64,000 nucleotides of DNA from Loxodes magnus (taxonomy: Eukaryota; Ciliophora; Karyorelictea; Loxodida; Loxodidae): assembly GCA_946699065.1 (NCBI GenBank), contig CAMPDV010002100.1:1-64000 (forward strand). The letters are read 5' to 3'. The position numbers were made by a program, and so were the translations under genes. The notes beneath the pieces were generated by a model. It was not told where the DNA came from. It did no database searches and saw nothing but the letters and a program-made list of their open reading frames with translations. Below are positions 33,701-64,000 of the stretch, in pieces; position 1 is the first letter of the stretch; each line of letters begins with the position of its first letter.

Positions 33701-36700
33701 TAATTGTCGTAAATTAAATTCAAATCTAACTATTTTTAATTGTCGTAAAAATAAATTCAAATCTAACTATTTTTAATTGTCGTAAAATTAAATTCAAATC
33801 TAACTATTTTTAATTGTCGTAAAATTAAATTCAAATCTAACTATTTTTAATTGTCGTAAAATTAAATTCAAATCTAACTATTTTTAATTGTCGTAAAAAT
33901 AAATTCAAATCTAACTATTTTTAATTGTCGTCAAATTAAATTCAAATCTAACTATTTTTAATTGTCGTAAAATTAAATTCAAATCTAACTATTTTTAATT
34001 GTCGTAAAATTAAATTCAAATCTAACTATTTTTAATTGTCGTAAAAATAAATTCAAATCTAACTATTTTTAATTGTCGTAAAATCAAATTCAAATCTAAC
34101 TATTTTTAATTGTCGTAAAATAAATTCAAATCTAACTATTTTTAATTGTCGTAAAATTAAATTCAAATCTAACTATTTTTAATTGTCGTAAAAATAAATT
34201 CAAATCTAACTATTTTTAATTGTCGTAAAATAAATTCAAATCTAACTATTTTTAATTTTCGTAAATTAAATTCAAATCTAACTATTTTTAATTGTCGTAA
34301 AAATAAATTCAAATCTAACTATTTTTAATTGTCGTAAAAATAAATTCAAATCTAACTATTTTTAATTTTCGTAAAATTAAATTCAAATCTAACTATTTTT
34401 AATTGTCGTAAAAATAAATTCAAATCTAACTATTTTTAATCTACGTCAAATTAAATTCAAATCTAACTATTTTTAATTGTCGTAAAATTAAATTCAAATC
34501 TAACTATTTTTAATTTACGTAAAATTAAATTCAAATCTAACTATTTTTAATTGTCGTAAAAATAAATTCAAATCTAACTATTTTTTATCTACGTAAAATT
34601 AAATTCAAATCTAACTATTTTTAATCTACGTAAAATTAAATTCAAATCTAACTATTTTTAATTGTCGTAAAATCAAATTCAAATCTAACTATTTTTAATT
34701 GTCGTAAAATTAAATTCAAATCTAACTATTTTTAATTGTCGTAAAATTAAATTCAAATCTAACTATTTTTAATTGTCGTAAAATTAAATTCAAATCTAAC
34801 TATTTTTAATTTACGTAAAATTAAATTCAAATCTAACTATTTTTAATTGTCGTAAAAATAAATTCAAATCTAACTATTTTTAATTGTCGTAAATTAAATT
34901 CAAATCTAACTATTTTTAATTGTCGTAAAATTAAATTCAAATCTAACTATTTTTAATTTACGTAAAATTAAATTCAAATCTAACTATTTTTAATTGTCGT
35001 AAAAATAAATTCAAATCTAACTATTTTTAATTGTCGTAAATTAAATTCAAATCTAACTATTTTTAATTGTCGTAAAATTAAATTCAAATCTAACTATTTT
35101 TAATTGTCGTAAATTAAATTCAAATCTAACTATTTTTAATTGTCGTAAAATTAAATTCAAATCTAACTATTTTTAATTGTCGTAAAATTAAATTCAAATC
35201 TAACTATTTTTAATTCTCGTAAAATTAAATTCAAATCTAACTATTTTTAATTGTCGTAAAAATTAAATTCAAATCTAACTATTTTTAATTGTCGTAAAAA
35301 TAAATTCAAATCTAACTATTTTTAATTGTCGTAAAATTAAATTCAAATCTAACTATTTTTAATTGTCGTAAAATTAAATTCAAATCTAACTATTTTTAAT
35401 TGACGTAAAATTAAATTCAAATCTAACTATTTTTAATCTACGTCAAATTAAATTCAAATCTAACTATTTTTAATTGTCGTAAAATTAAATTCAAATCTAA
35501 CTATTTTTAATTGTCGTAAAATTAAATTCAAATCTAACTATTTTTAATTGTCGTAAAATTAAATTCAAATCTAACTATTTTTAATTAACGTAAAAATAAA
35601 TTCAAATCTAACTATTTTTAATTGTCGTAAAAATAAATTCAAATCTAACTATTTTTAATTGTCGTAAAATTAAATTCAAATCTAACTATTTTTAATTGTC
35701 GTAAAATTAAATTCAAATCTAACTATTTTTAATTGTCGTAAAAATAAATTCAAATCTAACTATTTTTAATTAACGTAAAAATAAATTCAAATCTAACTAT
35801 TTTTAATTGTCGTAAAAATAAATTCAAATCTAACTATTTTTAATTGTCGTAAAATTAAATTCAAATCTAACTATTTTTAATTGTCGTAAATTAAATTCAA
35901 ATCTAACTATTTTTAATTGTCGTAAAAATAAATTCAAATCTAACTATTTTTAATTGTCGTAAAAATAAATTCAAATCTAACTATTTTTAATCTACGTAAA
36001 ATTAAATTCAAATCTAACTATTTTTAATTGTGTAAAAATAAATTCAAATCTAACTATTTTTAATCTACGTAAATTAAATTCAAATCTAACTATTTTTAAT
36101 TGTCGTAAAAATAAATTCAAATCTAACTATTTTTAATTGTCATAAAATTAAATTCAAATCTAACTATTTTTAATTGTCGTAAAAATAAATTCAAATCTAA
36201 CTATTTTTAATCTACGTAAAATTAAATTCAAATCTAACTATTTTTAATTGTCGTAAAATTAAATTCAAATCTAACTATTTTTAATTGTCGTAAATTAAAT
36301 TCAAATCTAACTATTTTTAATTGTCGTAAAAATAAATTCAAATCTAACTATTTTTAATTGTCGTAAAATCAAATTCAAATCTAACTATTTTTAATTGTCG
36401 TAAAATAAATTCAAATCTAACTATTTTTAATTAACGTAAAATTAAATTCAAATCTAACTATTTTTAATTTACGTAAAATTAAATTCAAATCTAACTATTT
36501 TTAATTGTCGTAAAATTAAATTCAAATCTAACTATTTTTAATTGTCGTAAATTAAATTCAAATCTAACTATTTTTAATTGTCGTAAAATAAATTCAAATC
36601 TAACTATTTTTAATTGTCGTAAATTAAATTCAAATCTAACTATTTTTAATTTACGTAAAATTAAATTCAAATCTAACTATTTTTAATTGTCGTAAAATAA

Positions 36701-40735: not shown

Positions 40736-41064
40736 ATTTACGTAAAAATAAATTCAAATCTAACTATTTTTAATTGTCGTAAAATTAAATTCAAATCTAA
40801 CTATTTTTAATTGTCGTAAAATTAAATTCAAATCTAACTATTTTTAATTGTCGTAAAATTAAATTCAAATCTAACTATTTTTAATTGTCGTAAAATTAAA
40901 TTCAAATCTAACTATTTTTAATTGTCGTAAAAATAAATTCAAATCTAACTATTTTTAATTGTCGTAAAAATAAATTCAAATCTAACTATTTTTAATTGTC
41001 GTAAAATTAAATTCAAATCTAACTATTTTTAATTGTCGTAAAATAAATTCAAATCTAACTATTT

Positions 41065-44000
41065 TTAATTGTCGTAAAAATAAATTCAAATCTAACTATT
41101 TTTAATTGTCGTAAAAATAAATTCAAATCTAACTATTTTTAATCTACGTAAAATCAAATTCAAATCTAACTATTTTTAATTGTCGTAAAATTAAATTCAA
41201 ATCTAACTATTTTTAATTGTCGTAAAATTAAATTCAAATCTAACTATTTTTAATTGTCGTAAAATTAAATTCAAATCTAACTATTTTTAATTGTCGTAAA
41301 ATTAAATTCAAATCTAACTATTTTTAATCTACGTAAAAATAAATTCTAATCTAACTATTTTTAATTGTCGTAAAATTAAATTCAAATCTAACTATTTTTA
41401 ATTTTCGTAAAAATAAATTTAAATCTAACTATTTTTAATCTACGTAAAATCAAATTCAAATCTAACTATTTTTAATTGTCGTAAAATTAAATTCAAATCT
41501 AACTTTTTTTAATTGTCGTAAAATTAAATTCAAATCTAACTATTTTTAATTGTCGTAAAATTAAATTCAAATCTAACTATTTTTAATTGTCGTAAAAATA
41601 AATTCAAATTTAACTATTTTTAATTTACGTAAAAATAAATTCAAATCTAACTATTTTTAATCTACGTCAAATTAAATTCAAATCTAACTATTTTTAATTG
41701 TCGTAAAATTAAATTCAAATCTAACTATTTTTAATTGTCGTAAAAATAAATTCAAATTTAACTATTTTTAATTTACGTAAAAATAAATTCAAATCTAACT
41801 ATTTTTAATCTACGTCAAATTAAATTCAAATCTAACTATTTTTAATTGTCGTAAAATTAAATTCAAATCTAACTATTTTTAATTGTCGTAAAATCAAATT
41901 CAAATCTAACTATTTTTAATTGTCGTAAAATTAAATTCAAATCTAACTATTTTTAATTGTCGTAAAAATAAATTCAAATCTAACTATTTTTAATTAACGA
42001 AAATTAAATTCAAATCTAACTATTTTTAATTTTCGTAAATTAAATTCAAATCTAACTATTTTTAATTGTCGTAAAAATAAATTCAAATCTAACTATTTTT
42101 AATTGTCGTAAAAATAAATTCAAATCTAACTATTTTTAATTTTCGTAAAATTAAATTCAAATCTAACTATTTTTAATTGTCGTAAAATTAAATTCAAATC
42201 TAACTATTTTTAATTGTCGTAAAATTAAATTCAAATCTAACTATTTTTAATTTACGTAAAATTAAATTCAAATCTAACTATTTTTAATTGTCGTAAAATT
42301 AAATTCAAATCTAACTATTTTTAATTGTCGTAAAATTAAATTCAAATCTAACTATTTTTAATTGTCGTAAAATTAAATTCAAATCTAACTATTTTTAATC
42401 TACGTAAAAATAAATTCTAATCTAACTATTTTTAATTGTCGTAAAAATAAATTCAAATCTAACTATTTTTAATTTTCGTAAAAATAAATTTAAATCTAAC
42501 TATTTTTAATCTACGTAAAATCAAATTCAAATCTAACTATTTTTAATTGTCGTAAAATTAAATTCAAATCTAACTTTTTTTAATTGTCGTAAAATTAAAT
42601 TCAAATCTAACTATTTTTAATTGTCGTAAAATTAAATTCAAATCTAACTATTTTTAATTGTCGTAAAAATAAATTCAAATTTAACTATTTTTAATTTACG
42701 TAAAAATAAATTCAAATCTAACTATTTTTAATCTACGTCAAATTAAATTCAAATCTAACTATTTTTAATTGTCGTAAAATTAAATTCAAATCTAACTATT
42801 TTTAATTGTCGTAAAAATAAATTCAAATTTAACTATTTTTAATTTACGTAAAAATAAATTCAAATCTAACTATTTTTAATCTACGTCAAATTAAATTCAA
42901 ATCTAACTATTTTTAATTGTCGTAAAATTAAATTCAAATCTAACTATTTTTAATTGTCGTAAAATCAAATTCAAATCTAACTATTTTTAATTGTCGTAAA
43001 ATTAAATTCAAATCTAACTATTTTTAATTGTCGTAAAAATAAATTCAAATCTAACTATTTTTAATTAACGAAAATTAAATTCAAATCTAACTATTTTTAA
43101 TTTTCGTAAATTAAATTCAAATCTAACTATTTTTAATTGTCGTAAAAATAAATTCAAATCTAACTATTTTTAATTGTCGTAAAAATAAATTCAAATCTAA
43201 CTATTTTTAATTTTCGTAAAATTAAATTCAAATCTAACTATTTTTAATTGTCGTAAAATTAAATTCAAATCTAACTATTTTTAATTGTCGTAAAATTAAA
43301 TTCAAATCTAACTATTTTTAATTTACGTAAAATTAAATTCAAATCTAACTATTTTTAATTGTCGTAAAATTAAATTCAAATCTAACTATTTTTAATTGTC
43401 GTAAAATTAAATTCAAATCTAACTATTTTTAATTGTCGTAAAATTAAATTCAAATCTAACTATTTTTAATTGTCGTAAAAATAAATTCAAATCTAACTAT
43501 TTTTTATCTACGTAAAATTAAATTCAAATCTAACTATTTTTAATCTACGTAAAATTAAATTCAAATCTAACTATTTTTAATTGTCGTAAAATCAAATTCA
43601 AATCTAACTATTTTTAATTGTCGTAAAATTAAATTCAAATCTAACTATTTTTAATTGTCGTAAATTAAATTCAAATCTAACTATTTTTAATTGTCGTAAA
43701 ATTAAATTCAAATCTAACTATTTTTAATTGTCGTAAAATTAAATTCAAATCTAACTATTTTTAATTCTCGTAAAATTAAATTCAAATCTAACTATTTTTA
43801 ATTGTCGTAAAAATAAATTCAAATCTAACTATTTTTAATTGTCGTAAAAATAAATTCAAATCTAACTATTTTTAATTGTCGTAAAATTAAATTCAAATCT
43901 AACTATTTTTAATCTACGTAAAATCAAATTCAAATCTAACTATTTTTAATTGTCGTAAAATCAAATTCAAATCTAACTATTTTTAATTGTCGTAAAATCA

Positions 44001-44193
44001 AATTCAAATCTAACTATTTTTAATTGTCGTAAAATAAATTCAAATCTAACTATTTTTAATTAACGTAAAAATAAATTCAAATCTAACTATTTTTAATTGT
44101 CGTAAAATTAAATTCAAATCTAACTATTTTTAATTGTCGTAAAAATAAATTCAAATCTAACTATTTTTAATTGTCGTAAAATTAAATTCAAAT
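41065..44193 (+). repeat. 3.1 kb block, copy 1 (offset 5,321)
   Basis: Recurs at 46,386-49,514. Anchors at the same offset: CTACGTAAAATC (41,141 and 46,462), ATTCTAATC (41,343 and 46,664; 42,414 and 47,735), the TAACGAAAATT linker (41,997 and 47,318; 43,068 and 48,389) and the six-T core (43,506 and 48,827). It contains two 1,071-bp higher-order units. The core variant CAAATTTAAC is common from 40.5 to 49.8 kb and rare elsewhere, which marks this as a local subfamily. Confidence 0.88.
41343..43484 (+). repeat. Higher-order repeat, two 1,071-bp units
   Basis: ATTCTAATC marks the start of units at 41,343 and 42,414, and TAACGAAAATT recurs at 41,997 and 43,068, both 1,071 bp apart (29 monomers). 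A related start at 40,234 lies 1,109 bp upstream of the first unit but diverges after about 500 bp. The unit carries cores with a seven-T run (AACTTTTTTT) and several CAAATTTAAC cores. Confidence 0.85.
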
Positions 44194-46385
44194 CTAACTA
44201 TTTTTAATCTACGTAAAATCAAATTCAAATCTAACTATTTTTAATTGTCGTAAAATAAATTCAAATCTAACTATTTTTAATCTACGTAAAATCAAATTCA
44301 AATCTAACTATTTTTAATTGTCGTAAAATTAAATTCAAATCTAACTATTTTTAATTGTCGTAAAATTAAATTCAAATCTAACTATTTTTAATCTACGTAA
44401 AATCAAATTCAAATCTAACTATTTTTAATTGTCGTAAAATTAAATTCAAATCTAACTATTTTTAATCTACGTAAAATCAAATTCAAATCTAACTATTTTT
44501 AATTGTCGTAAAATCAAATTCAAATCTAACTATTTTTAATTAACGTAAAAATAAATTCAAATCTAACTATTTTTAATTGTCGTAAAATTAAATTCAAATC
44601 TAACTATTTTTAATTGTCGTAAAATTAAATTCAAATCTAACTATTTTTAATCTACGTAAAATCAAATTCAAATCTAACTATTTTTAATTGTCGTAAAATT
44701 AAATTCAAATCTAACTATTTTTAATTGTCGTAAAATTAAATTCAAATCTAACTATTTTTAATTGTCGTAAAATTAAATTCAAATCTAACTATTTTTAATT
44801 GTCGTAAAAATAAATTCAAATTTAACTATTTTTAATTTACGTAAAAATAAATTCAAATCTAACTATTTTTAATCTACGTCAAATTAAATTCAAATCTAAC
44901 TATTTTTAATTGTCGTAAAATTAAATTCAAATCTAACTATTTTTAATTGTCGTAAAAATAAATTCAAATTTAACTATTTTTAATTTACGTAAAAATAAAT
45001 TCAAATCTAACTATTTTTAATCTACGTCAAATTAAATTCAAATCTAACTATTTTTAATTTACGTAAAAATAAATTCAAATCTAACTATTTTTAATTGTCG
45101 TAAAATTAAATTCAAATCTAACTATTTTTAATTGTCGTAAAATTAAATTCAAATCTAACTATTTTTAATTGTCGTAAAATTAAATTCAAATCTAACTATT
45201 TTTAATTGTCGTAAAAATAAATTCAAATTTAACTATTTTTAATTTACGTAAAAATAAATTCAAATCTAACTATTTTTAATCTACGTCAAATTAAATTCAA
45301 ATCTAACTATTTTTAATTGTCGTAAAATTAAATTCAAATCTAACTATTTTTAATTGTCGTAAAAATAAATTCAAATTTAACTATTTTTAATTTACGTAAA
45401 AATAAATTCAAATCTAACTATTTTTAATCTACGTCAAATTAAATTCAAATCTAACTATTTTTAATTTACGTAAAAATAAATTCAAATCTAACTATTTTTA
45501 ATTGTCGTAAAATTAAATTCAAATCTAACTATTTTTAATTGTCGTAAAATTAAATTCAAATCTAACTATTTTTAATTGTCGTAAAATTAAATTCAAATCT
45601 AACTATTTTTAATTGTCGTAAAATTAAATTCAAATCTAACTATTTTTAATTGTCGTAAAAATAAATTCAAATCTAACTATTTTTAATTGTCGTAAAAATA
45701 AATTCAAATCTAACTATTTTTAATTGTCGTAAAATTAAATTCAAATCTAACTATTTTTAATTGTCGTAAAAATAAATTCAAATCTAACTATTTTTAATTG
45801 TCGTAAAAATAAATTCAAATCTAACTATTTTTAATTGTCGTAAAATTAAATTCAAATCTAACTATTTTTAATTGTCGTAAAATTAAATTCAAATCTAACT
45901 ATTTTTAATTGTCGTAAAATTAAATTCAAATCTAACTATTTTTAATTGTCGTAAAATTAAATTCAAATCTAACTATTTTTAATTTACGTAAAATTAAATT
46001 CAAATCTAACTATTTTTAATTGTCGTAAAATTAAATTCAAATCTAACTATTTTTAATTGTCGTAAAATTAAATTCAAATCTAACTATTTTTAATTGTCGT
46101 AAAAATAAATTCAAATCTAACTATTTTTAATCTACGTCAAATTAAATTCAAATCTAACTATTTTTAATTGTCGTAAAATTAAATTCAAATCTAACTATTT
46201 TTAATCTACGTAAAATCAAATTCAAATCTAACTATTTTTAATTGTCATAAAATTAAATTCAAATCTAACTATTTTTAATTGTCGTAAAAATAAATTCAAA
46301 TCTAACTATTTTTAATCTACGTAAAATTAAATTCAAATCTAACTATTTTTAATTGTCGTAAAAATAAATTCAAATCTAACTATTT
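44194..46385 (+). repeat. Satellite with internal sub-duplications
   Basis: The trio CAAATTTAAC core, TTACG-TAAAAAT, CTACG-TCAAATT repeats several times between about 44,810 and 45,480. The CTACGTCAAATT monomer at 45,433 and its follow-on match 40,705 onward (offset 4,728). It belongs to the same subfamily as the flanking 5,321-bp blocks. From 46,015 it enters the second copy of the 39,585-40,735 block. Confidence 0.7.
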
Positions 46386-49300
46386 TTAATTGTCGTAAAA
46401 ATAAATTCAAATCTAACTATTTTTAATTGTCGTAAAAATAAATTCAAATCTAACTATTTTTAATCTACGTAAAATCAAATTCAAATCTAACTATTTTTAA
46501 TTGTCGTAAAATTAAATTCAAATCTAACTATTTTTAATTGTCGTAAAATTAAATTCAAATCTAACTATTTTTAATTGTCGTAAAATTAAATTCAAATCTA
46601 ACTATTTTTAATTGTCGTAAAATTAAATTCAAATCTAACTATTTTTAATCTACGTAAAAATAAATTCTAATCTAACTATTTTTAATTGTCGTAAAATTAA
46701 ATTCAAATCTAACTATTTTTAATTTTCGTAAAAATAAATTTAAATCTAACTATTTTTAATCTACGTAAAATCAAATTCAAATCTAACTATTTTTAATTGT
46801 CGTAAAATTAAATTCAAATCTAACTATTTTTAATTGTCGTAAAATTAAATTCAAATCTAACTATTTTTAATTGTCGTAAAATTAAATTCAAATCTAACTA
46901 TTTTTAATTGTCGTAAAAATAAATTCAAATTTAACTATTTTTAATTTACGTAAAAATAAATTCAAATCTAACTATTTTTAATCTACGTCAAATTAAATTC
47001 AAATCTAACTATTTTTAATTGTCGTAAAATTAAATTCAAATCTAACTATTTTTAATTGTCGTAAAAATAAATTCAAATTTAACTATTTTTAATTTACGTA
47101 AAAATAAATTCAAATCTAACTATTTTTAATCTACGTCAAATTAAATTCAAATCTAACTATTTTTAATTGTCGTAAAATTAAATTCAAATCTAACTATTTT
47201 TAATTGTCGTAAAATCAAATTCAAATCTAACTATTTTTAATTGTCGTAAAATTAAATTCAAATCTAACTATTTTTAATTGTCGTAAAAATAAATTCAAAT
47301 CTAACTATTTTTAATTAACGAAAATTAAATTCAAATCTAACTATTTTTAATTTTCGTAAATTAAATTCAAATCTAACTATTTTTAATTGTCGTAAAAATA
47401 AATTCAAATCTAACTATTTTTAATTGTCGTAAAAATAAATTCAAATCTAACTATTTTTAATTTTCGTAAAATTAAATTCAAATCTAACTATTTTTAATTG
47501 TCGTAAAATTAAATTCAAATCTAACTATTTTTAATTGTCGTAAAATTAAATTCAAATCTAACTATTTTTAATTTACGTAAAATTAAATTCAAATCTAACT
47601 ATTTTTAATTGTCGTAAAATTAAATTCAAATCTAACTATTTTTAATTGTCGTAAAATTAAATTCAAATCTAACTATTTTTAATTGTCGTAAAATTAAATT
47701 CAAATCTAACTATTTTTAATCTACGTAAAAATAAATTCTAATCTAACTATTTTTAATTGTCGTAAAAATAAATTCAAATCTAACTATTTTTAATTTTCGT
47801 AAAAATAAATTTAAATCTAACTATTTTTAATCTACGTAAAATCAAATTCAAATCTAACTATTTTTAATTGTCGTAAAATTAAATTCAAATCTAACTTTTT
47901 TTAATTGTCGTAAAATTAAATTCAAATCTAACTATTTTTAATTGTCGTAAAATTAAATTCAAATCTAACTATTTTTAATTGTCGTAAAAATAAATTCAAA
48001 TTTAACTATTTTTAATTTACGTAAAAATAAATTCAAATCTAACTATTTTTAATCTACGTCAAATTAAATTCAAATCTAACTATTTTTAATTGTCGTAAAA
48101 TTAAATTCAAATCTAACTATTTTTAATTGTCGTAAAAATAAATTCAAATTTAACTATTTTTAATTTACGTAAAAATAAATTCAAATCTAACTATTTTTAA
48201 TCTACGTCAAATTAAATTCAAATCTAACTATTTTTAATTGTCGTAAAATTAAATTCAAATCTAACTATTTTTAATTGTCGTAAAATCAAATTCAAATCTA
48301 ACTATTTTTAATTGTCGTAAAATTAAATTCAAATCTAACTATTTTTAATTGTCGTAAAAATAAATTCAAATCTAACTATTTTTAATTAACGAAAATTAAA
48401 TTCAAATCTAACTATTTTTAATTTTCGTAAATTAAATTCAAATCTAACTATTTTTAATTGTCGTAAAATCAAATTCAAATCTAACTATTTTTAATTGTCG
48501 TAAAAATAAATTCAAATCTAACTATTTTTAATTTTCGTAAAATTAAATTCAAATCTAACTATTTTTAATTGTCGTAAAATTAAATTCAAATCTAACTATT
48601 TTTAATTGTCGTAAAATTAAATTCAAATCTAACTATTTTTAATTTACGTAAAATTAAATTCAAATCTAACTATTTTTAATTGTCGTAAAATTAAATTCAA
48701 ATCTAACTATTTTTAATTGTCGTAAAATTAAATTCAAATCTAACTATTTTTAATTGTCGTAAAATTAAATTCAAATCTAACTATTTTTAATTGTCGTAAA
48801 AATAAATTCAAATCTAACTATTTTTTATCTACGTAAAATTAAATTCAAATCTAACTATTTTTAATCTACGTAAAATTAAATTCAAATCTAACTATTTTTA
48901 ATTGTCGTAAAATCAAATTCAAATCTAACTATTTTTAATTGTCGTAAAATTAAATTCAAATCTAACTATTTTTAATTGTCGTAAATTAAATTCAAATCTA
49001 ACTATTTTTAATTGTCGTAAAATTAAATTCAAATCTAACTATTTTTAATTGTCGTAAAATTAAATTCAAATCTAACTATTTTTAATTCTCGTAAAATTAA
49101 ATTCAAATCTAACTATTTTTAATTGTCGTAAAAATAAATTCAAATCTAACTATTTTTAATTGTCGTAAAAATAAATTCAAATCTAACTATTTTTAATTGT
49201 CGTAAAATTAAATTCAAATCTAACTATTTTTAATCTACGTAAAATCAAATTCAAATCTAACTATTTTTAATTGTCGTAAAATCAAATTCAAATCTAACTA

Positions 49301-49514
49301 TTTTTAATTGTCGTAAAATCAAATTCAAATCTAACTATTTTTAATTGTCGTAAAATAAATTCAAATCTAACTATTTTTAATTAACGTAAAAATAAATTCA
49401 AATCTAACTATTTTTAATTGTCGTAAAATTAAATTCAAATCTAACTATTTTTAATTGTCGTAAAAATAAATTCAAATCTAACTATTTTTAATTGTCGTAA
49501 AATTAAATTCAAAT
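46386..49514 (+). repeat. 3.1 kb block, copy 2 (offset 5,321)
   Basis: Second copy of 41,065-44,193, again with two 1,071-bp units starting at 46,664 and 47,735. It diverges from copy 1 at about 49,510, where a CAAATTTAAC core and TTACG linkers replace CTACG-TAAAATC. Its right part (from about 47,803) is also the distal end of the left palindrome arm. Confidence 0.88.
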
Positions 49515-52500
49515 TTAACTATTTTTAATTTACGTAAAAATAAATTCAAATCTAACTATTTTTAATCTACGTCAAATTAAATTCAAATCTAACTATTTTT
49601 AATTTACGTAAAAATAAATTCAAATCTAACTATTTTTAATTGTCGTAAAATTAAATTCAAATCTAACTATTTTTAATTGTCGTAAAATTAAATTCAAATC
49701 TAACTATTTTTAATTGTCGTAAAATTAAATTCAAATCTAACTATTTTTAATTGTCGTAAAAATAAATTCAAATTTAACTATTTTTAATTTACGTAAAATT
49801 AAATTCAAATCTAACTATTTTTAATTGTCGTAAATTAAATTCAAATCTAACTATTTTTAATTGTCGTAAAATTAAATTCAAATCTAACTATTTTTAATTG
49901 TCGTAAAATCAAATTCAAATCTAACTATTTTTAATTGTCGTAAAATAAATTCAAATCTAACTATTTTTAATTGTCGTAAAAATAAATTCAAATCTAACTA
50001 TTTTTAATCTACGTAAAATTAAATTCAAATCTAACTATTTTTAATTGTCGTAAAATAAATTCAAATCTAACTATTTTTAATTGTCGTAAAATTAAATTCA
50101 AATCTAACTATTTTTAATTGTCGTAAAATTAAATTCAAATCTAACTATTTTTAATTGTCGTAAATTAAATTCAAATCTAACTATTTTTAATTGTCGTAAA
50201 AATAAATTCAAATCTAACTATTTTTAATTGTCGTAAAATCAAATTCAAATCTAACTATTTTTAATTGTCGTAAAATAAATTCAAATCTAACTATTTTTAA
50301 TTGTCGTAAAAATAAATTCAAATCTAACTATTTTTAATTTTCGTAAAAATAAATTCAAATCTAACTATTTTTAATTGTCGTAAAATAAATTCAAATCTAA
50401 CTATTTTTAATTGTCGTAAAATTAAATTCAAATCTAACTATTTTTAATTGTCGTAAAATTAAATTCAAATCTAACTATTTTTAATTGTCGTAAATTAAAT
50501 TCAAATCTAACTATTTTTAATTGTCGTAAAAATAAATTCAAATCTAACTATTTTTAATTGTCGTAAAATCAAATTCAAATCTAACTATTTTTAATTGTCG
50601 TAAAATAAATTCAAATCTAACTATTTTTAATTAACGTAAAATTAAATTCAAATCTAACTATTTTTAATTAACGTAAAATTAAATTCAAATCTAACTATTT
50701 TTAATTGTCGTAAATTAAATTCAAATCTAACTATTTTTAATTTACGTAAAATTAAATTCAAATCTAACTATTTTTAATTGTCGTAAAATAAATTCAAATC
50801 TAACTATTTTTAATCTACGTAAAATCAAATTCAAATCTAACTATTTTTAATTGTCGTAAAAATAAATTCAAATCTAACTATTTTTAATTGTCGTAAAATT
50901 AAATTCAAATCTAACTATTTTTAATTGTCGTAAAATTAAATTCAAATCTAACTATTTTTAATTGTCGTAAAATTAAATTCAAATCTAACTATTTTTAATT
51001 GTCGTAAAATTAAATTCAAATCTAACTATTTTTAATTAACGTAAAATTAAATTCAAATCTAACTATTTTTAATTAACGTAAAAATAAATTCAAATCTAAC
51101 TATTTTTAATTGTCGTAAAAATAAATTCAAATCTAACTATTTTTAATCTACGTAAAATCAAATTCAAATCTAACTATTTTTAATTGTCGTAAAATTAAAT
51201 TCAAATCTAACTATTTTTAATTTACGTAAAAATAAATTCAAATCTAACTATTTTTAATTGTCGTAAAATTAAATTCAAATCTAACTATTTTTAATTGTCG
51301 TAAAATTAAATTCAAATCTAACTATTTTTAATTGTCGTAAAATTAAATTCAAATCTAACTATTTTTAATTGTCGTAAAATTAAATTCAAATCTAACTATT
51401 TTTAATTGTCGTAAAAATAAATTCAAATCTAACTATTTTTAATTGTCGTAAAAATAAATTCAAATCTAACTATTTTTAATTGTCGTAAAATTAAATTCAA
51501 ATCTAACTATTTTTAATTGTCGTAAAATTAAATTCAAATCTAACTATTTTTAATTGTCGTAAAAATAAATTCAAATCTAACTATTTTTAATTGTCGTAAA
51601 AATAAATTCAAATCTAACTATTTTTAATTGTCGTAAAAATAAATTCAAATCTAACTATTTTTAATTGTCGTAAAATTAAATTCAAATCTAACTATTTTTA
51701 ATTGTCGTAAAATTAAATTCAAATCTAACTATTTTTAATTTACGTAAAAATAAATTCAAATCTAACTATTTTTAATTGTCGTAAAATTAAATTCAAATCT
51801 AACTATTTTTAATTGTCGTAAAATAAATTCAAATCTAACTATTTTTAATTGTCGTAAAATTAAATTCAAATCTAACTATTTTTAATTGTCGTAAAAATAA
51901 ATTCAAATCTAACTATTTTTAATTGTCGTAAAATAAATTCAAATCTAACTATTTTTAATTGTCGTAAAATTAAATTCAAATCTAACTATTTTTAATCTAC
52001 GTAAAATCAAATTCAAATCTAACTATTTTTAATTGTCGTAAAAATAAATTCAAATCTAACTATTTTTAATTGTCGTAAAAATAAATTCAAATCTAACTAT
52101 TTTTAATTGTCGTAAAATAAATTCAAATCTAACTATTTTTAATCTACGTAAAATCAAATTCAAATCTAACTATTTTTAATTGTCGTAAAAATAAATTCAA
52201 ATCTAACTATTTTTAATTGTCGTAAAATCAAATTCAAATCTAACTATTTTTAATCTACGTAAAATCAAATTCAAATCTAACTATTTTTAATTTACGTAAA
52301 AATAAATTCAAATCTAACTATTTTTAATTTTCGTAAAATTAAATTCAAATCTAACTATTTTTAATTGTCGTAAAATTAAATTCAAATCTAACTATTTTTA
52401 ATTGTCGTAAAATTAAATTCAAATCTAACTATTTTTAATTGTCGTAAAATTAAATTCAAATCTAACTATTTTTAATTAACGTAAAATTAAATTCAAATCT

Positions 52501-55500
52501 AACTATTTTTAATTGTCGTAAAAATAAATTCAAATCTAACTATTTTTAATTGTCGTAAAAATAAATTCAAATCTAACTATTTTTAATTGTCGTAAAAATA
52601 AATTCAAATCTAACTATTTTTAATTAACGTAAAATCAAATTCAAATCTAACTATTTTTAATTGTCGTAAAAATAAATTCAAATCTAACTATTTTTAATTA
52701 ACGTAAAAATAAATTCAAATCTAACTATTTTTAATTGTCGTAAAAATAAATTCAAGTCTAACTATTTTTAATTTACGTAAAATTAAATTCAAATCTAACT
52801 ATTTTTAATTGTCGTAAAATTAAATTCAAATCTAACTATTTTTAATTAACGTAAAATTAAATTCAAATCTAACTATTTTTAATTGTCGTAAAATTAAATT
52901 CAAATCTAACTATTTTTAATTGTCGTAAAATTAAATTCAAATCTAACTATTTTTAATTGTCGTAAAATTAAATTCAAATCTAACTATTTTTAATTGTCGT
53001 AAATTAAATTCAAATCTAACTATTTTTAATTGTCGTAAAATTAAATTCAAATCTAACTATTTTTAATTGTCGTAAAATTAAATTCAAATCTAACTATTTT
53101 TAATTGTCGTAAAATAAATTCAAATCTAACTATTTTTAATTGTCGTAAAATTAAATTCAAATCTAACTATTTTTAATTCTCGTAAAATTAAATTCAAATC
53201 TAACTATTTTTAATTGTCGTAAAAATAAATTCAAATCTAACTATTTTTAATTGTCGTAAAATTAAATTCAAATCTAACTATTTTTAATTAACGTAAAAAT
53301 AAATTCAAATCTAACTATTTTTAATTGTCGTAAAATTAAATTCAAATCTAACTATTTTTAATTGTCGTAAAAATAAATTCAAATCTAACTATTTTTAATT
53401 GTCGTAAAATAAATTCAAATCTAACTATTTTTAATCTACGTAAAATCAAATTCAAATCTAACTATTTTTAATTGTCGTAAAATTAAATTCAAATCTAACT
53501 ATTTTTAATTGTCGTAAAATAAATTCAAATCTAACTATTTTTAATTGTCGTAAAATAAATTCAAATCTAACTATTTTTAATTGTCGTAAAATTAAATTCA
53601 AATCTAACTATTTTTAATCTACTTAAAATCAAATTCAAATCTAACTATTTTTAATTGTCGTAAAATAAATTCAAATCTAACTATTTTTAATTGTCGTAAA
53701 ATAAATTCAAATCTAACTATTTTTAATCTACGTAAAATCAAATTCAAATCTAACTATTTTTAATTTACGTAAAAATAAATTCAAATCTAACTATTTTTAA
53801 TTGTCGTAAAAATAAATTCAAATCTAACTATTTTTAATTGTCGTAAAATAAATTCAAATCTAACTATTTTTAATCTACGTAAAATCAAATTCAAATCTAA
53901 CTATTTTTAATTGTCGTAAAAATAAATTCAAATCTAACTATTTTTAATTGTCGTAAAATTAAATTCAAATCTAACTATTTTTAATTGTCGTAAAATTAAA
54001 TTCAAATCTAACTATTTTTAATTGTCGTAAAATTAAATTCAAATCTAACTATTTTTAATTGTCGTAAAATAAATTCAAATCTAACTATTTTTAATTGTCG
54101 TAAAATTAAATTCAAATCTAACTATTTTTAATTGTCGTAAAAATAAATTCAAATCTAACTATTTTTAATTGTCGTAAAATTAAATTCAAATCTAACTATT
54201 TTTAATTGTCGTAAAATTAAATTCAAATCTAACTATTTTTAATTGTCGTAAAATTAAATTCAAATCTAACTATTTTTAATTGTCGTAAAATTAAATTCAA
54301 ATCTAACTATTTTTAATTGTCGTAAAATTAAATTCAAATCTAACTATTTTTAATTGTCGTAAAATTAAATTCAAATCTAACTATTTTTAATTGTCGTAAA
54401 ATTAAATTCAAATCTAACTATTTTTAATTGTCGTAAAAATAAATTCAAATCTAACTATTTTTAATCTACGTAAAATCAAATTCAAATCTAACTATTTTTA
54501 ATTGTCGTAAAATCAAATTCAAATCTAACTATTTTTAATTGTCGTAAAATTAAATTCAAATCTAACTATTTTTAATTGTCGTAAAATTAAATTCAAATCT
54601 AACTATTTTTAATTGTCGTAAAATTAAATTCAAATCTAACTATTTTTAATTGTCGTAAAATTAAATTCAAATCTAACTATTTTTAATCTACGTAAAATCA
54701 AATTCAAATCTAACTATTTTTAATTGTCGTAAAATTAAATTCAAATCTAACTATTTTTAATTGTCGTAAAATTAAATTCAAATCTAACTATTTTTAATTG
54801 TCGTAAAAATAAATTCAAATCTAACTATTTTTAATTTTCGTAAAATTAAATTCAAATCTAACTATTTTTAATTGTCGTAAAATTAAATTCAAATCTAACT
54901 ATTTTTAATTGTCGTAAAAATAAATTCAAATCTAACTATTTTTAATTAACGTAAAATCAAATTCAAATCTAACTATTTTTAATTGTCGTAAAATAAATTC
55001 AAATCTAACTATTTTTAATTGTCGTAAAATTAAATTCAAATCTAACTATTTTTAATTGTCGTAAAATAAATTCAAATCTAACTATTTTTAATTGTCGTAA
55101 AATTAAATTCAAATCTAACTATTTTTAATTGTCGTAAAATAAATTCAAATCTAACTATTTTTAATTGTCGTAAAATAAATTCAAATCTAACTATTTTAAT
55201 CTACGTAAAATCAAATTCAAATCTAACTATTTTTAATTGTCGTAAAAATAAATTCAAATCTAACTATTTTTAATCTACGTAAAATCAAATTCAAATCTAA
55301 CTATTTTTAATTGTCGTAAAATTAAATTCAAATCTAACTATTTTTAATTGTCGTAAAAATAAATTCAAATCTAACTATTTTTAATTGTCGTAAAAATAAA
55401 TTCAAATCTAACTATTTTTAATTGTCGTAAAATTAAATTCAAATCTAACTATTTTTAATTGTCGTAAAATAAATTCAAATCTAACTATTTTTAATTGTCG

Positions 55501-56034
55501 TAAAATTAAATTCAAATCTAACTATTTTTAATTTACGTAAAATTAAATTCAAATCTAACTATTTTTAATTGTCGTAAAATTAAATTCAAATCTAACTATT
55601 TTTAATTGTCGTAAAAATAAATTCAAATCTAACTATTTTTAATTGTCGTAAAATTAAATTCAAATCTAACTATTTTTAATTGTCGTAAAATTAAATTCAA
55701 ATCTAACTATTTTTAATTGTCGTAAAATTAAATTCAAATCTAACTATTTTTAATTGTCGTAAAAATAAATTCAAATCTAACTATTTTTAATTGTCGTAAA
55801 ATAAATTCAAATCTAACTATTTTTAATTGTCGTAAAATTAAATTCAAATCTAACTATTTTTAATTGTCGTAAAAATAAATTCAAATCTAACTATTTTTAA
55901 TTGTCGTAAAATTAAATTCAAATCTAACTATTTTTAATTGTCGTAAAAATAAATTCAAATCTAACTATTTTTTAATTGTCGTAAAATAAATTCAAATCTA
56001 ACTATTTTTAATTGTCGTAAAATTAAATTCAAAT
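47803..56034 (+). repeat. Left arm of an ~8 kb satellite palindrome
   Basis: Read backwards from the junction, the linker types of this stretch match those of 56,035-64,000 read forwards. The first 13 monomers agree in order apart from one-base length changes, and the match resumes after a 12-monomer patch. Mirrored markers sum to 112,074-112,075 out to 3.3 kb from the centre (exactly 112,075 for the pairs 53,623/58,452 and 54,839/57,236), to 112,066 at 6.3 kb (49,774/62,292), and to 111,802 at the window end, where the TAAATTTAAATC variant at 47,812 pairs with 63,990. The right arm has therefore lost about 270 bp, nearly all beyond 62.3 kb. Agreement of variant order, not just of monomer sequence, separates a copied arm from a chance inversion inside a satellite. 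Confidence 0.9.
49515..55983 (+). repeat. Satellite forming most of the left palindrome arm
   Basis: Ordinary monomers with a few private marks that serve as mirrored anchors: CAAGTCT at 52,756, a linker with its CpG lost (CTACTTAAAATC) at 53,623, a four-T core at about 55,194 and a six-T core at about 55,970. A seven-monomer motif (TGTCG-TAAAATT twice, TAAATT, TAAAAAT, TAAAATC, TAAAAT, TAAAAAT) recurs in part at about 49,870-50,600, so a short amplification sits here too. Confidence 0.82.
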
Positions 56035-56091
56035 AGTTAGATTTGAATTTAATTTTACGACAATTAAAAATAGTTAGATTTGAATTTATTT
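55984..56091. other. Palindrome centre and orientation switch
   Basis: The forward monomer breaks off in its core after ATTCAAAT (ending 56,034). A 6-nt spacer AGTTAG (56,035-56,040) follows, then ATTTGAAT opens the inverted array at 56,041. The flanking arms are perfect inverted repeats for about 51 bp on each side, and the first difference is a single missing T at 56,092. No foreign sequence, target-site duplication or transposon end lies at the switch. The tiny spacer is what a hairpin-type fold-back would leave, in the cell or during library preparation or sequencing. Confidence 0.95.
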
Positions 56092-56518
56092 ACGACAATT
56101 AAAAATAGTTAGATTTGAATTTATTTTTACGACAATTAAAAATAGTTAGATTTGAATTTAATTTTACGACAATTAAAAATAGTTAGATTTGAATTTATTT
56201 TTACGACAATTAAAAATAGTTAGATTTGAATTTAATTTTACGACAATTAAAAATAGTTAGATTTGAATTTATTTTACGACAATTAAAAATAGTTAGATTT
56301 GAATTTATTTTTACGACAATTAAAAATAGTTAGATTTGAATTTAATTTTACGACAATTAAAAATAGTTAGATTTGAATTTAATTTACGACAATTAAAAAT
56401 AGTTAGATTTGAATTTAATTTTACGACAATTAAAAATAGTTAGATTTGAATTTATTTTTACGACAATTAAAAATAGTTAGATTTGAATTTAATTTTACGA
56501 CAATTAAAAATAGTTAGA

Positions 56519-56930
56519 TTTGAATTTAATTTTACGTTAATTAAAAATAGTTAGATTTGAATTTAATTTTACGACAATTAAAAATAGTTAGATTTGAATT
56601 TAATTTTACGTAAATTAAAAATAGTTAGACTTGAATTTATTTTTACGACAATTAAAAATAGTTAGATTTGAATTTATTTTTACGTTAATTAAAAATAGTT
56701 AGATTTGAATTTATTTTTACGACAATTAAAAATAGTTAGATTTGAATTTGATTTTACGTTAATTAAAAATAGTTAGATTTGAATTTATTTTTACGACAAT
56801 TAAAAATAGTTAGATTTGAATTTATTTTTACGACAATTAAAAATAGTTAGATTTGAATTTATTTTTACGACAATTAAAAATAGTTAGATTTGAATTTAAT
56901 TTTACGTTAATTAAAAATAGTTAGATTTGA
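56519..56930 (-). repeat. Non-mirrored patch of about 12 monomers in the right arm
   Basis: Monomers 14 to about 25 from the centre do not mirror their left-arm partners (about 55,145-55,556), although both arms count the same number of monomers to the next shared marker, so the length is kept. The patch instead reads as a copy of a segment mirrored at 52,456-52,867 and present again in the right arm at about 59,207-59,618. It carries the same rare CAAGTCT variant (complement at 56,630) and the same run of linkers TAACG-T, TGTCG-T, TTACG-T, TGTCG-A, TAACG-A, TGTCG-A, TAACG-C. This looks like a gene-conversion tract, or like a consensus or assembly swap between similar copies. Confidence 0.8.
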
Positions 56931-59900
56931 ATTTAATTTTACGACAATTAAAAATAGTTAGATTTGAATTTAATTTTACGACAATTAAAAATAGTTAGAT
57001 TTGAATTTATTTTACGACAATTAAAAATAGTTAGATTTGAATTTAATTTTACGACAATTAAAATAGTTAGATTTGAATTTATTTTACGACAATTAAAAAT
57101 AGTTAGATTTGAATTTGATTTTACGTTAATTAAAAATAGTTAGATTTGAATTTATTTTTACGACAATTAAAAATAGTTAGATTTGAATTTAATTTTACGA
57201 CAATTAAAAATAGTTAGATTTGAATTTAATTTTACGAAAATTAAAAATAGTTAGATTTGAATTTATTTTTACGACAATTAAAAATAGTTAGATTTGAATT
57301 TAATTTTACGACAATTAAAAATAGTTAGATTTGAATTTAATTTTACGACAATTAAAAATAGTTAGATTTGAATTTGATTTTACGTAGATTAAAAATAGTT
57401 AGATTTGAATTTAATTTTACGACAATTAAAAATAGTTAGATTTGAATTTAATTTTACGACAATTAAAAATAGTTAGATTTGAATTTAATTTTACGACAAT
57501 TAAAAATAGTTAGATTTGAATTTAATTTTACGACAATTAAAAATAGTTAGATTTGAATTTGATTTTACGACAATTAAAAATAGTTAGATTTGAATTTGAT
57601 TTTACGTAGATTAAAAATAGTTAGATTTGAATTTATTTTTACGACAATTAAAAATAGTTAGATTTGAATTTAATTTTACGACAATTAAAAATAGTTAGAT
57701 TTGAATTTAATTTTACGACAATTAAAAATAGTTAGATTTGAATTTAATTTTACGACAATTAAAAATAGTTAGATTTGAATTTAATTTTACGACAATTAAA
57801 AATAGTTAGATTTGAATTTAATTTTACGACAATTAAAAATAGTTAGATTTGAATTTAATTTTACGACAATTAAAAATAGTTAGATTTGAATTTAATTTTA
57901 CGACAATTAAAAATAGTTAGATTTGAATTTATTTTTACGACAATTAAAAATAGTTAGATTTGAATTTAATTTTACGACAATTAAAAAATAGTTAGATTTG
58001 AATTTATTTTACGACAATTAAAAATAGTTAGATTTGAATTTAATTTTACGACAATTAAAAATAGTTAGATTTGAATTTAATTTTACGACAATTAAAAATA
58101 GTTAGATTTGAAATTTAATTTTACGACAATTAAAAATAGTTAGATTTGAATTTATTTTACGACAATTAAAAATAGTTAGATTTGAATTTGATTTTACGTA
58201 GATTAAAAATAGTTAGATTTGAATTATTTTACGACAATTAAAAATAGTTAGATTTGAATTTATTTTTACGACAATTAAAAATAGTTAGATTTGAATTTAT
58301 TTTTACGTAAATTAAAAATAGTTAGATTTGAATTTGATTTTACGTAGATTAAAAATAGTTAGATTTGAATTTATTTTACGACAATTAAAAATAGTTAGAT
58401 TTGAATTTATTTTACGACAATTAAAAATAGTTAGATTTGAATTTGATTTTAAGTAGATTAAAAATAGTTAGATTTGAATTTAATTTTACGACAATTAAAA
58501 ATAGTTAGATTTGAATTTATTTTACGACAATTAAAAATAGTTAGATTGAATTTATTTTACGACAATTAAAAATAGTTAGATTTGAATTTAATTTTACGAC
58601 AATTAAAAATAGTTAGATTTGAATTTGATTTTACGTAGATTAAAAATAGTTAGATTTGAATTTATTTTACGACAATTAAAAATAGTTAGATTTGAATTTA
58701 TTTTTACGACAATTAAAAATAGTTAGATTTGAATTTAATTTTACGACAATTAAAAATAGTTAGATTTGAATTTATTTTTACGTTAATTAAAAATAGTTAG
58801 ATTTGAATTTAATTTACGACAATTAAAAATAGTTAGATTTGAATTTATTTTTACGACAATTAAAAATAGTTAGATTTGAATTTAATTTTACGAGAATTAA
58901 AAATAGTTAGATTTGAATTTAATTTTACGACAATTAAAAATAGTTAGATTTGAATTTATTTTACGACAATTAAAAATAGTTTAGATTTGAATTTAATTTT
59001 ACGACAATTAAAAATAGTTAGATTTGAATTTAATTTTACGACAATTAAAAATAGTTAGATTTGAATTTAATTTACGACAATTAAAAATAGTTTAGATTTG
59101 AATTTAATTTACGACAATTAAAAATAGTTAGATTTGAATTTAATTTTACGACAATTAAAAATAGTTAGATTTGAATTTAATTTTACGACAATTAAAAATA
59201 GTTAGATTTGAATTTAATTTTACGTTAATTAAAAATAGTTAGATTTGAATTTAATTTTACGACAATTAAAAATAGTTAGATTTGAATTTAATTTTACGTA
59301 AATTAAAAATAGTTAGACTTGAATTTATTTTTACGACAATTAAAAATAGTTAGATTTGAATTTATTTTTACGTTAATTAAAAATAGTTAGATTTGAATTT
59401 ATTTTTACGACAATTAAAAATAGTTAGATTTGAATTTGATTTACGTTAATTAAAAATAGTTAGATTTGAATTTATTTTTACGACAATTAAAAATAGTTAG
59501 ATTTGAATTTATTTTTACGACAATTAAAAATAGTTAGATTTGAATTTATTTTTACGACAATTAAAAATAGTTAGATTTGAATTTAATTTTACGTTAATTA
59601 AAAATAGTTAGATTTGAATTTAATTTTACGACAATTAAAAATAGTTAGATTTGAATTTAATTTTACGACAATTAAAAATAGTTAGATTTGAATTTAATTT
59701 TACGACAATTAAAAATAGTTAGATTTGAATTTAATTTTACGAAAATTAAAAATAGTTAGATTTGAATTTATTTTTACGTAAATTAAAAATAGTTAGATTT
59801 GAATTTGATTTTACGTAGATTAAAAATAGTTAGATTTGAATTTGATTTTACGACAATTAAAAATAGTTAGATTTGAATTTATTTTACGACAATTAAAAAT

Positions 59901-62384
59901 AGTTAGATTTGAATTTGATTTTACGTAGATTAAAAATAGTTAGATTTGAATTTATTTTACGACAATTAAAAATAGTTAGATTTGAATTTATTTTACGACA
60001 ATTAAAAATAGTTAGATTTGAATTTATTTTTACGACAATTAAAAATAGTTAGATTTGAATTTGATTTTACGTAGATTAAAAATAGTTAGATTTGAATTTA
60101 ATTTTACGACAATTAAAAATAGTTAGATTTGAATTTATTTTACGACAATTAAAAATAGTTAGATTTGAATTTATTTTTACGACAATTAAAAATAGTTAGA
60201 TTTGAATTTAATTTTACGACAATTAAAAATAGTTAGATTTGAATTTATTTTACGACAATTAAAAATAGTTAGATTTGAATTTAATTTTACGACAATTAAA
60301 AATAGTTAGATTTGAATTTATTTTTACGTAAATTAAAAATAGTTAGATTTGAATTTAATTTTACGACAATTAAAAATAGTTAGATTTGAATTTAATTTTA
60401 CGACAATTAAAAATAGTTAGATTTGAATTTATTTTTACGACAATTAAAAATAGTTAGATTTGAATTTATTTTTACGACAATTAAAAATAGTTAGATTTGA
60501 ATTTATTTTTACGACAATTAAAAATAGTTAGATTTGAATTTAATTTTACGACAATTAAAAATAGTTAGATTTGAATTTAATTTTACGACAATTAAAAATA
60601 GTTAGATTTGAATTTATTTTTACGACAATTAAAAATAGTTAGATTTGAATTTATTTTTACGACAATTAAAAATAGTTAGATTTGAATTTAATTTTACGAC
60701 AATTAAAAATAGTTAGATTTGAATTTAATTTTACGACAATTAAAAATAGTTAGATTTGAATTTAATTTTACGACAATTAAAAATAGTTAGATTTGAATTT
60801 AATTTACGACAATTAAAAATAGTTAGATTGAATTTATTTTACGTAAATTAAAAATAGTTAGATTTGAATTTAATTTTACGACAATTAAAAATAGTTAGAT
60901 TTGAATTTGATTTTACGTAGATTAAAAATAGTTAGATTTGAATTTATTTTTACGACAATTAAAAATAGTTAGATTTGAATTTATTTTTACGTTAATTAAA
61001 AATAGTTAGATTTGAATTTAATTTTACGTTAATTAAAAATAGTTAGATTTGAATTTAATTTTACGACAATTAAAAATAGTTAGATTTGAATTTAATTTTA
61101 CGACAATTAAAAATAGTTAGATTTGAATTTAATTTTACGACAATTAAAAATAGTTAGATTTGAATTTAATTTTACGACAATTAAAAATAGTTAGATTTGA
61201 ATTTATTTTTACGACAATTAAAAATAGTTAGATTTGAATTTGATTTTACGTAGATTAAAAATAGTTAGATTTGAATTTATTTTACGACAATTAAAAATAG
61301 TTAGATTTGAATTTAATTTTACGTAAATTAAAAATAGTTAGATTTGAATTTAATTTACGACAATTAAAAATAGTTAGATTTGAATTTAATTTTACGTTAA
61401 TTAAAAATAGTTAGATTTGAATTTAATTTTACGTTAATTAAAAATAGTTAGATTTGAATTTATTTTACGACAATTAAAAATAGTTAGATTTGAATTGATT
61501 TTACGACAATTAAAAATAGTTAGATTTGAATTTATTTTTACGACAATTAAAAATAGTTAGATTTGAATTAATTTACGACAATTAAAAATAGTTAGATTTG
61601 AATTTAATTTTACGACAATTAAAAATAGTTAGATTTGAATTTAATTTTACGACAATTAAAAATAGTTAGATTTGAATTTATTTTACGACAATTAAAAATA
61701 GTTAGATTTGAATTTATTTTTACGAAAATTAAAAATAGTTAGATTTGAATTTATTTTTACGACAATTAAAAATAGTTAGATTTGAATTTATTTTACGACA
61801 ATTAAAAATAGTTAGATTTGAATTTGATTTTACGACAATTAAAAATAGTTAGATTTGAATTTATTTTTACGACAATTAAAAATAGTTAGATTTGAATTTA
61901 ATTTTTACGACAATTAAAAATAGTTAGATTTGAATTTAATTTTACGTTAATTAAAAATAGTTAGATTTGAATTTATTTTACGACAATTAAAAATAGTTAG
62001 ATTTGAATTTATTTTACGACAATTAAAAATAGTTAGATTTGAATTAATTTTACGACAATTAAAAATAGTTAGATTTGAATTTATTTTTACGACAATTAAA
62101 AATAGTTAGATTTGAATTTATTTTACGACAATTAAAAATAGTTAGATTTGAATTTGATTTTACGACAATTAAAAATAGTTAGATTTGAATTTAATTTTAC
62201 GACAATTAAAAATAGTTAGATTTGAATTTAATTTACGAGATTAAAAATAGTTAGATTTGAATTTAATTTTACGTACAATTAAAAATAGTTAAATTTGAAT
62301 TTAATTTTACGACAATTAAAAATAGTTAGATTTGAATTTAATTTTACGACAATTAAAAATAGTTAGATTTGAATTTAATTTTAC

Positions 62385-62665
62385 GACGACGACAATTAAA
62401 AAATAGAATTTATTTTTAGATTTGTTAGATTTATTTAATTTACGAATTTATTTTTACAATTAAAAATAGTTAGAATTTAATTTTAGATTTGTTAATTTAA
62501 TTTTACAATTAAAAATAGTTAGATTTGTTACGACAATTAAAAATAGAATTTATTTTTACGTTAATTTGTTAATTTGAATTTATTTTACGACAATTAAAAA
62601 TAGTTAGATTTGAATTTGATTTTAGATTTGAATTTATTTTTTTACGATTTTACGTAATTAAAAAT
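62385..62665 (-). repeat. Scrambled satellite stretch in the right arm
   Basis: Regular monomers collapse into fragments: a tripled ACGACGACGAC, then pieces such as TAGAATTTATTTTTAG, TTGTTAGATTTATTTAATT, ATTTGTTACGACAATT and a seven-T run before ACGATTTTACG. Most of the roughly 270 bp by which the right arm is shorter than the left is lost in or beyond this stretch. The composition is still purely satellite words, so it is damaged satellite rather than an insertion. Poor base calling or polishing at low coverage is at least as likely as mutation. Confidence 0.85.
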
Positions 62666-63796
62666 AGTTAGATTTGAATTTGATTTTACGACAATTAAAA
62701 ATAGTTAGATTTGAATTTATTTTTACGACAATTAAAAATAGTTAGATTTGAATTTAATTTTACGAGATTAAAAATAGTTAGATTTGAATTTAATTTTACG
62801 ACAATTAAAAATAGTTAGATTTGAATTTAATTTTACGACAATTAAAAATAGTTAGATTTGAATTTAATTTTACGACAATTAAAAATAGTTAGATTTGAAT
62901 TTAATTTACGACAATTAAAAATAGTTAGATTTGAATTTAATTTTACGACAATTAAAAATAGTTAGATTTGAATTTAATTTTACGACAATTAAAAATAGTT
63001 AGATTTGAATTTAATTTTACGTAAATTAAAAATAGTTAGATTTGAATTTGATTTTACGTAGATTAAAAATAGTTAGATTTGAATTTATTTTTACGACAAT
63101 TAAAAATAGTTAGATTTGAATTTATTTTTACGTAGATTAAAAATAGTTAGATTTGAATTTAATTTTACGTCAATTAAAAATAGTTAGATTTGAATTTAAT
63201 TTTACGACAATTAAAAATAGTTAGATTTGAATTTATTTTACGTAAATTAAAAATAGTTAGATTTGAATTTAATTTTACGACAATTAAAAATAGTTAGATT
63301 TGAATTTATTTTTACGACAATTAAAAATAGTTAGATTTGAATTTATTTTTACGAAAATTAAAAATAGTTAGATTTGAATTTATTTTTACGACAATTAAAA
63401 ATAGTTAGATTTGAATTTAATTTTACGACAATTAAAAATAGTTAGATTTGAATTTAATTTACGAAAATTAAAAATAGTTAGATTTGAATTTGATTTTCGT
63501 AGATTAAAAATAGTTAGATTTGAATTTAATTTTACGACAATTAAAAATAGTTAGATTTGAATTTATTTTTACGAAATTAAAAATAGTTAGATTTGAATTT
63601 AATTTTACGACAATTAAAAATAGTTAGATTTGAATTTAATTTTACGTTAATTAAAAATAGTTAGATTTGAATTTAATTTGACGTAGATTAAAAATAGTTA
63701 GATTTGAATTTATTTTTACGTAAATTAAAAATAGTTAAATTTGAATTTATTTTTACGACAATTAAAAATAGTTAGATTTGAATTTAATTTTACGAC

Positions 63797-63905
63797 AATT
63801 AAAAAATATTTGAATTTATTTTTAGATTTGTTAAATTTGAATTTATTTTTACGACAATTAAAAATAGTTAGATTTGAATTTAATTTACGACAATTATTTT
63901 AAAAT
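63797..63905 (-). repeat. Second scrambled satellite stretch
   Basis: Monomers lose parts of the core (ATTAAAAAATATTTGAATTT, then TTTTTAGATTTGTTAAATTT), and one linker-core join reads ACAATTATTTTAAAATAG. On either side, variant order again fits the mirrored left arm near 47,850-48,060. It is the same kind of damage as at 62,385-62,665. Confidence 0.75.
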
Positions 63906-64000
63906 AGTTAGATTTGAATTTAATTTTACGACAATTAAAAATAGTTAGATTTGAATTTGATTTTACGTAGATTAAAAATAGTTAGATTTAAATTTATTTT

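Follow-up and report, generated by a model that had tools for sequence, protein, structure and literature searches.

Chromosomal palindromes, such as those of the human Y, have arms that are kept alike by arm-to-arm gene conversion. Satellite DNA offers a different kind of symmetry, the macro-dyads of Tribolium, in which one satellite forms two opposed subarrays of several kilobases; in the part of the paper available to us, the authors state that such symmetries are documented only in that genus (PMC13081366). Similar structures are also produced by sequencing. Fold-back reads make up ~0.55 to 0.6% of ONT genomic reads, and typically fewer than half of the putative artefact reads have more than 11 bp between their halves, while HiFi data in that survey contained virtually none, a point that would weigh against an artefact here if the data were HiFi (PMC12870357). 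According to the sections of another report at our disposal, palindromes were found in 45.8% and 11.8% of reads from two sets of amplified DNA, compared with 0.5% in a control that had not been amplified; such reads had introduced inverted duplications into a published assembly, where they were not detected after cleaning (PMC6218980). A study of satellite arrays in nanopore reads held nothing usable on fold-backs in its accessible portion (PMC7004042).

The window that we analysed, a stretch of 64,000 nucleotides of the Loxodes magnus contig CAMPDV010002100.1, carries a 37-bp tandem satellite on the plus strand from base 1 to 56,034 (TRF row 6 to 56,034, the first 5 bases lying outside the row; 1,519.9 copies, 94% matches) and an opposite-strand array of the same satellite at 56,031 to 64,000 (216.7 copies, 92%). 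This reverse subarray is at least 8 kb long and extends off the window end. GC content of the satellite is 16 to 17% across the whole window, and the sign of the GC skew reverses at the flip. Skew and TRF orientation agree that the turn at 56,034/56,035 is a real feature of the sequence, as predicted, and it is the only flip of satellite orientation within the 64 kb. Cutting into monomers yielded 1,518 in forward orientation, belonging to 89 types, and 212 in reverse; variable columns (minor state at 1% or more) numbered 4 of 37 among the 786 37-bp monomers having an exact 16-base anchor, which masks variation in the first 16 monomer columns by construction. Two consensus stretches (51 and 24 bases) had no exact match in genome or viral contig collections, an absence that says little, as these searches took exact patterns only and covered collections that consist chiefly of prokaryotes and their viruses. 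The satellite had no megablast match among plasmids, no paper was found containing any of four monomer words, and none of 14 papers retrieved on 37-bp repeats, judged by titles and the start of abstracts, deals with the present satellite.

The forward array has a substructure of its own. A direct duplication pairs 16,143 to 24,984 with 27,710 to 36,551 at a spacing of 11,567 bp; it is identical over 8,842 bp, and identity stops well short of the full unit. Two origins are possible, a very recent unequal exchange and the double assembly of one stretch. Nested higher-order repeats pair 41,040 to 44,193 with 46,361 to 49,514 (spacing 5,321 bp, 3 differences in 3,154 bp) and 41,377 to 42,399 with 42,448 to 43,470 (spacing 1,071 bp, exact over 1,023 bp). 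Isolated rearranged or shortened monomers, classed as complex, occur at 9015, 9164, 12421, 12578, 12682, 13914, 27409, and 27688, and a ninth event of this class, at base 8, lies at the window edge; single broken monomers are thus not confined to the right half.

A mirror is genuinely present around the turn. Its paired positions sum to 112,075, and the 51 bp to the left of the 6-nt spacer AGTTAG (56,035 to 56,040) pair exactly with the 51 bp to its right. The flanks of the spacer (CAAAT before, ATTTG after) pair with each other and both carry canonical monomer letters; the spacer length and the axis near sum 112,074 to 112,075 given in the original prediction are correct. The left arm of the close mirror, as defined by alignment to the right arm, occupies 50,161 to 56,034 on the plus strand, and the right arm occupies 56,041 to 61,905 on the minus strand, interrupted by a foreign tract at 56,538 to 56,936. 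Bases 56,041 to 56,537 lie 3 edits from their mirror place, the best of 1,502 blocks (next, 8 edits). Bases 57,009 to 61,905 are an inverted copy of 50,161 to 55,067 with 19 edits and 0 substitutions in 4,897 bp, again the best place, of 1,383 blocks (median, 274 edits). With the mirror place best for both stretches, the claim that the order of variants is mirrored, and not merely the monomer, holds. A chance mirror is ruled out by the 19 edits at the mirror place vs the 218 needed at the best place more than 600 bases from it. Of 1,396 right-arm 100-mer positions with a single forward-array match, 942 fall at sums 112,060 to 112,079 and 270 at sums 109,380 to 109,399. The second half maps onto the place of the first half, on the opposite strand, within 200 bp, although this is a property of the assembled sequence and not of a read. 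Private markers, on which the prediction had leaned, were counted where independent and one-to-one: 61-mers gave 6 at mirror sums vs 5 at other sums (with 1 additional 61-mer marker in the tract and 1 in the diverged tail described below), 31-mers gave 1 vs 7, and 41-mers 2 vs 7. Short private markers alone are weak, and it is the long alignment that carries the case for the mirror.

These results also bear on the idea that assembly brought together, in opposing orientations, two stretches of this satellite that are unrelated to each other, which we regard as very improbable. Such a join would suit a right half that mixes variant orders, and an alignment allowed to jump did divide the right half into 7 segments at a jump cost of 8 and 4 at a cost of 14. 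The mirrored order nevertheless begins at the axis itself, with the stretch whose 3-edit match to its mirror place outranks all others among 1,502 blocks. Register is also preserved across the tract, and a chance join would miss the mirror place.

The close mirror stops at 61.9 to 62.2 kb, giving arms of ~5.9 kb and a whole palindrome of ~11.7 kb. In the outer border zone (61,906 to 62,238, minus strand), the mirror place, at 7 edits, is indistinguishable from two others. Beyond it, satellite words are joined with many small losses in a fragmented stretch at 62,380 to 62,660 (minus strand; 20 phrases, 71 per kb) and in a second one at 63,781 to 64,000, the window end (minus strand; 8 phrases, 36 per kb); phrase density was 5.2 per kb in 30 forward-array segments and 3.0 to 6.0 per kb in the mirror stretches of 57,009 to 61,905. 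In the jump-allowing alignment, the last 170 bp were assigned to 24,615 to 24,780 of the left half with 7 edits. Between the two fragmented stretches lies a diverged tail (62,662 to 63,640, minus strand), which has 25 edits to a shifted mirror place at 48,251 to 49,229 (sum 111,891), tied with the direct duplicate of that place at 42,930 to 43,908; the next place needs 34. Judged by this alignment, the tail is homologous to the shifted mirror place and not a copy of it. Over 979 bp there are 22 substitutions, 3 deleted bases, and 3 inserted bases, the last at the extreme edge. Because nearly all of the substitutions, judged by eye, sit at the usual variant sites of the monomer, we consider it likelier that the tail is a further real copy than that it is the mirror with noise added. 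Arms of at least 8 kb were therefore claimed too generously, since near-identity extends over only ~5.9 kb on either side of the axis and is interrupted by a foreign tract. The expected single long diagonal exists for the close mirror; the tract, the tie in the border zone, the fragmentation, and the diverged tail prevent one of 8 kb or more, and the sum of 111,802 reported for the window end arises only when a single diagonal is imposed on the entire half.

The tract itself is a 0-edit inverted copy, on the minus strand, of 52,450 to 52,848 on the plus strand (sum 109,386), and the next-best place needs 12 edits. Its widest limits are 56,456 to 57,008, those of the copied place 52,377 to 52,930. 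Compared with its own mirror place, it needs 26 edits, and 1,025 of 1,504 blocks fit better. Because the tract occupies the corresponding place in the right arm, the left-arm stretch 55,139 to 55,534 has no mirrored counterpart. We considered whether the entire inner right half is foreign, as the jump-allowing alignment puts 56,035 to 57,009 on 52,377 to 53,353 with 10 edits. Only the tract is foreign, because bases 56,041 to 56,537 fit the mirror better, with 3 edits. The tract lacks several indels that are present in the right arm's own copy of the same stretch, ~2.7 kb further out. Its length of 399 to 553 bp resembles the 500-bp window of a polishing program, a resemblance that we did not count as evidence.

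A conversion-like tract with an identifiable donor is what would be expected if a real inverted duplication of ~5.9 kb had formed in the array through template switching or fold-back repair and its right arm had then undergone gene conversion over 400 to 553 bp, the donor lying ~2.7 kb away, and if the sequence beyond were an older copy that has since diverged. We hold this account to be possible and on balance unlikely. The clean donor, the resumption of the mirror in register beyond the tract, and a tail that would be a genuine diverged relative all speak for it, although a consensus filled from mis-mapped reads would look identical to the tract. The junction permits a 4-nt overlap, AAAT, which we rejected as evidence for template switching; overlaps of at least 4 nt occurred in 7.0% of 200,000 random inverted joins and are too common by chance. 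Nearly spacerless palindromes of several kilobases are unstable in cells, and this too was counted against a real duplication.

The differences between the arms fall on one side. In the forced alignment of 57,009 to 61,905, there are 19 indel events (18 of one base and one of two bases, the latter at the outer edge), all of them within A/T runs; the right arm has lost sequence in 14 and gained it in 5. With state counts taken from bases 1 to 47,500, the rarer state is on the right arm in 19 of 19, and for 13 of the 19 the right-arm state occurs 0 to 2 times in those bases. The central 497 bp add three indels (rarer state right in two, left in one), bringing the right arm to 21 of 22, and the first right-arm rarer-state indel lies 55 bases past the axis. 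The exception, in which the left arm has the rarer state, is a six-T run at 55,968; it and a lost T at 55,193 to 55,194 are left-half oddities near the axis that count against a clean break there. Of the 9 novel 15-mer events that precede 62,239 in the right half, 7 are plain indels and the other two are readable as indel or substitution; in the forward array, plain indels account for 3 of 23, with 11 readable as substitution and 9 complex. Direct duplicate pairs served as the main control, as duplicated stretches cannot hold singletons and rare-monomer counts are affected by this. The 8,842-bp duplicate has 0 differences vs 19 in the 4,897 bp of the mirror (Fisher test, 3e-9), a control that is good and not perfect, since the assembly could have produced the second exact copy. 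Had the arms evolved after a duplication, changes should have accumulated in both and should include substitutions; the indels look instead like homopolymer errors left uncorrected in a single arm, starting at the axis. A real duplication would have to treat them as mere consensus errors in a poorly covered contig end, and the 0 substitutions beside one-sided indels, as well as a drop in quality that begins at the axis, argue against it.

The array was also searched for comparable copies. Among 21 forward segments of 4.9 kb compared with the forward array more than 600 bases away, best distances ranged from 0 to 271; 4 of the 21 had 0 to 2 edits, all via the one direct duplication spaced at 11,567 bp. 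Near-identical copies of this length are thus not the rule in the array, yet they occur. That exact duplicates of several kilobases exist is in keeping with a real duplication at the turn, as are the inverted multikilobase satellite subarrays of Tribolium, which were observed in raw HiFi reads according to the part of the source we had (PMC13081366). Every long duplicate detected in the forward array is, however, direct, and 7 forward segments compared with it on the wrong strand needed 2,040 to 2,068 edits, revealing no inverted partner there.

We favor a fold-back read as the origin, patched or lengthened by means of reads that came from other array copies, and the turn at 56,035 is probably not chromosomal. 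A self-complementary long read, representing one strand of a satellite fragment, a 6-nt loop, and then the complement, would have extended the contig. Its first half would have merged into the well-covered forward array, while its second half would have become the right arm, where few correcting reads would have left the homopolymer indels in place. The read may have ended near 62 kb, beyond which the consensus would have been patched or extended from reads of other array copies. We infer the read itself, the low depth, and the patching and extension. Several observations fit this origin: the one-sided indels, the tiny spacer, a length of ~11.7 kb that is of long-read size, and the fragmented outer stretches. 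It is favored by forward duplicates without such indels (0 in 8,842 bp, 3 in 3,154 bp) and supported by the preponderance of plain indels among the novel 15-mer events of the right half. The complement half carries only first-half variants over 497 bp and 4,897 bp, as expected of such a read, and this fails for the tract and for 62,662 to 63,640. The exact tract and the tail with its 22 substitutions count against a plain fold-back, because the variants in such a read can come from a single molecule only; a consensus, unlike a single read, may differ, and the fold-back origin would therefore require patching or extension from other copies. The original prediction had left the choice between an inverted duplication and a fold-back read or assembly error. 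The A/T-run indels, one-sided from 55 bases past the axis, favor error, and the differences of tract and tail at variant sites leave room for biology.

If the palindrome is an artefact, it illustrates how a satellite fold-back read can be mistaken for a multikilobase inverted array, and one-sided homopolymer indels, controlled by direct duplicates of the same array, would flag fold-backs without recourse to reads. If it is real, it would be a young inverted satellite duplication with a nameable donor for its conversion tract, bearing on the origin of arrays with inverted symmetry. We think it doubtful, though conceivable, that the locus is a recent, nearly spacerless inverted duplication of ~5.9 kb with one gene conversion tract and hence an example from nature of the origin and homogenization of inverted subarrays.

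Compared with the known systems, the locus most resembles fold-back read artefacts in its near-perfect forward-plus-complement copy, tiny spacer, and approximately read-sized length, as these artefacts are described by Breakinator (PMC12870357) and, in the part available to us, by Pacasus (PMC6218980). Unlike a plain fold-back artefact, the locus includes both a tract copied exactly from elsewhere and a tail that has diverged, and it is known here from finished sequence alone. With palindromes of the human Y type it shares near-identical inverted arms and a conversion-like tract, but its arms are satellite DNA, its spacer is 6 nt, and its homopolymer indels are one-sided. As in the macro-dyad symmetries of Tribolium, one satellite forms two opposed subarrays of several kilobases; the inversion sites of the Tribolium dyads, however, are diverged, conserved, and recurrent, whereas here canonical monomers meet once in 64 kb, and in the portion of that paper to which we had access the arms are not described as copies with the same order of variants (PMC13081366). 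Were the junction real, the opposed subarrays of Tribolium would be its nearest parallel.
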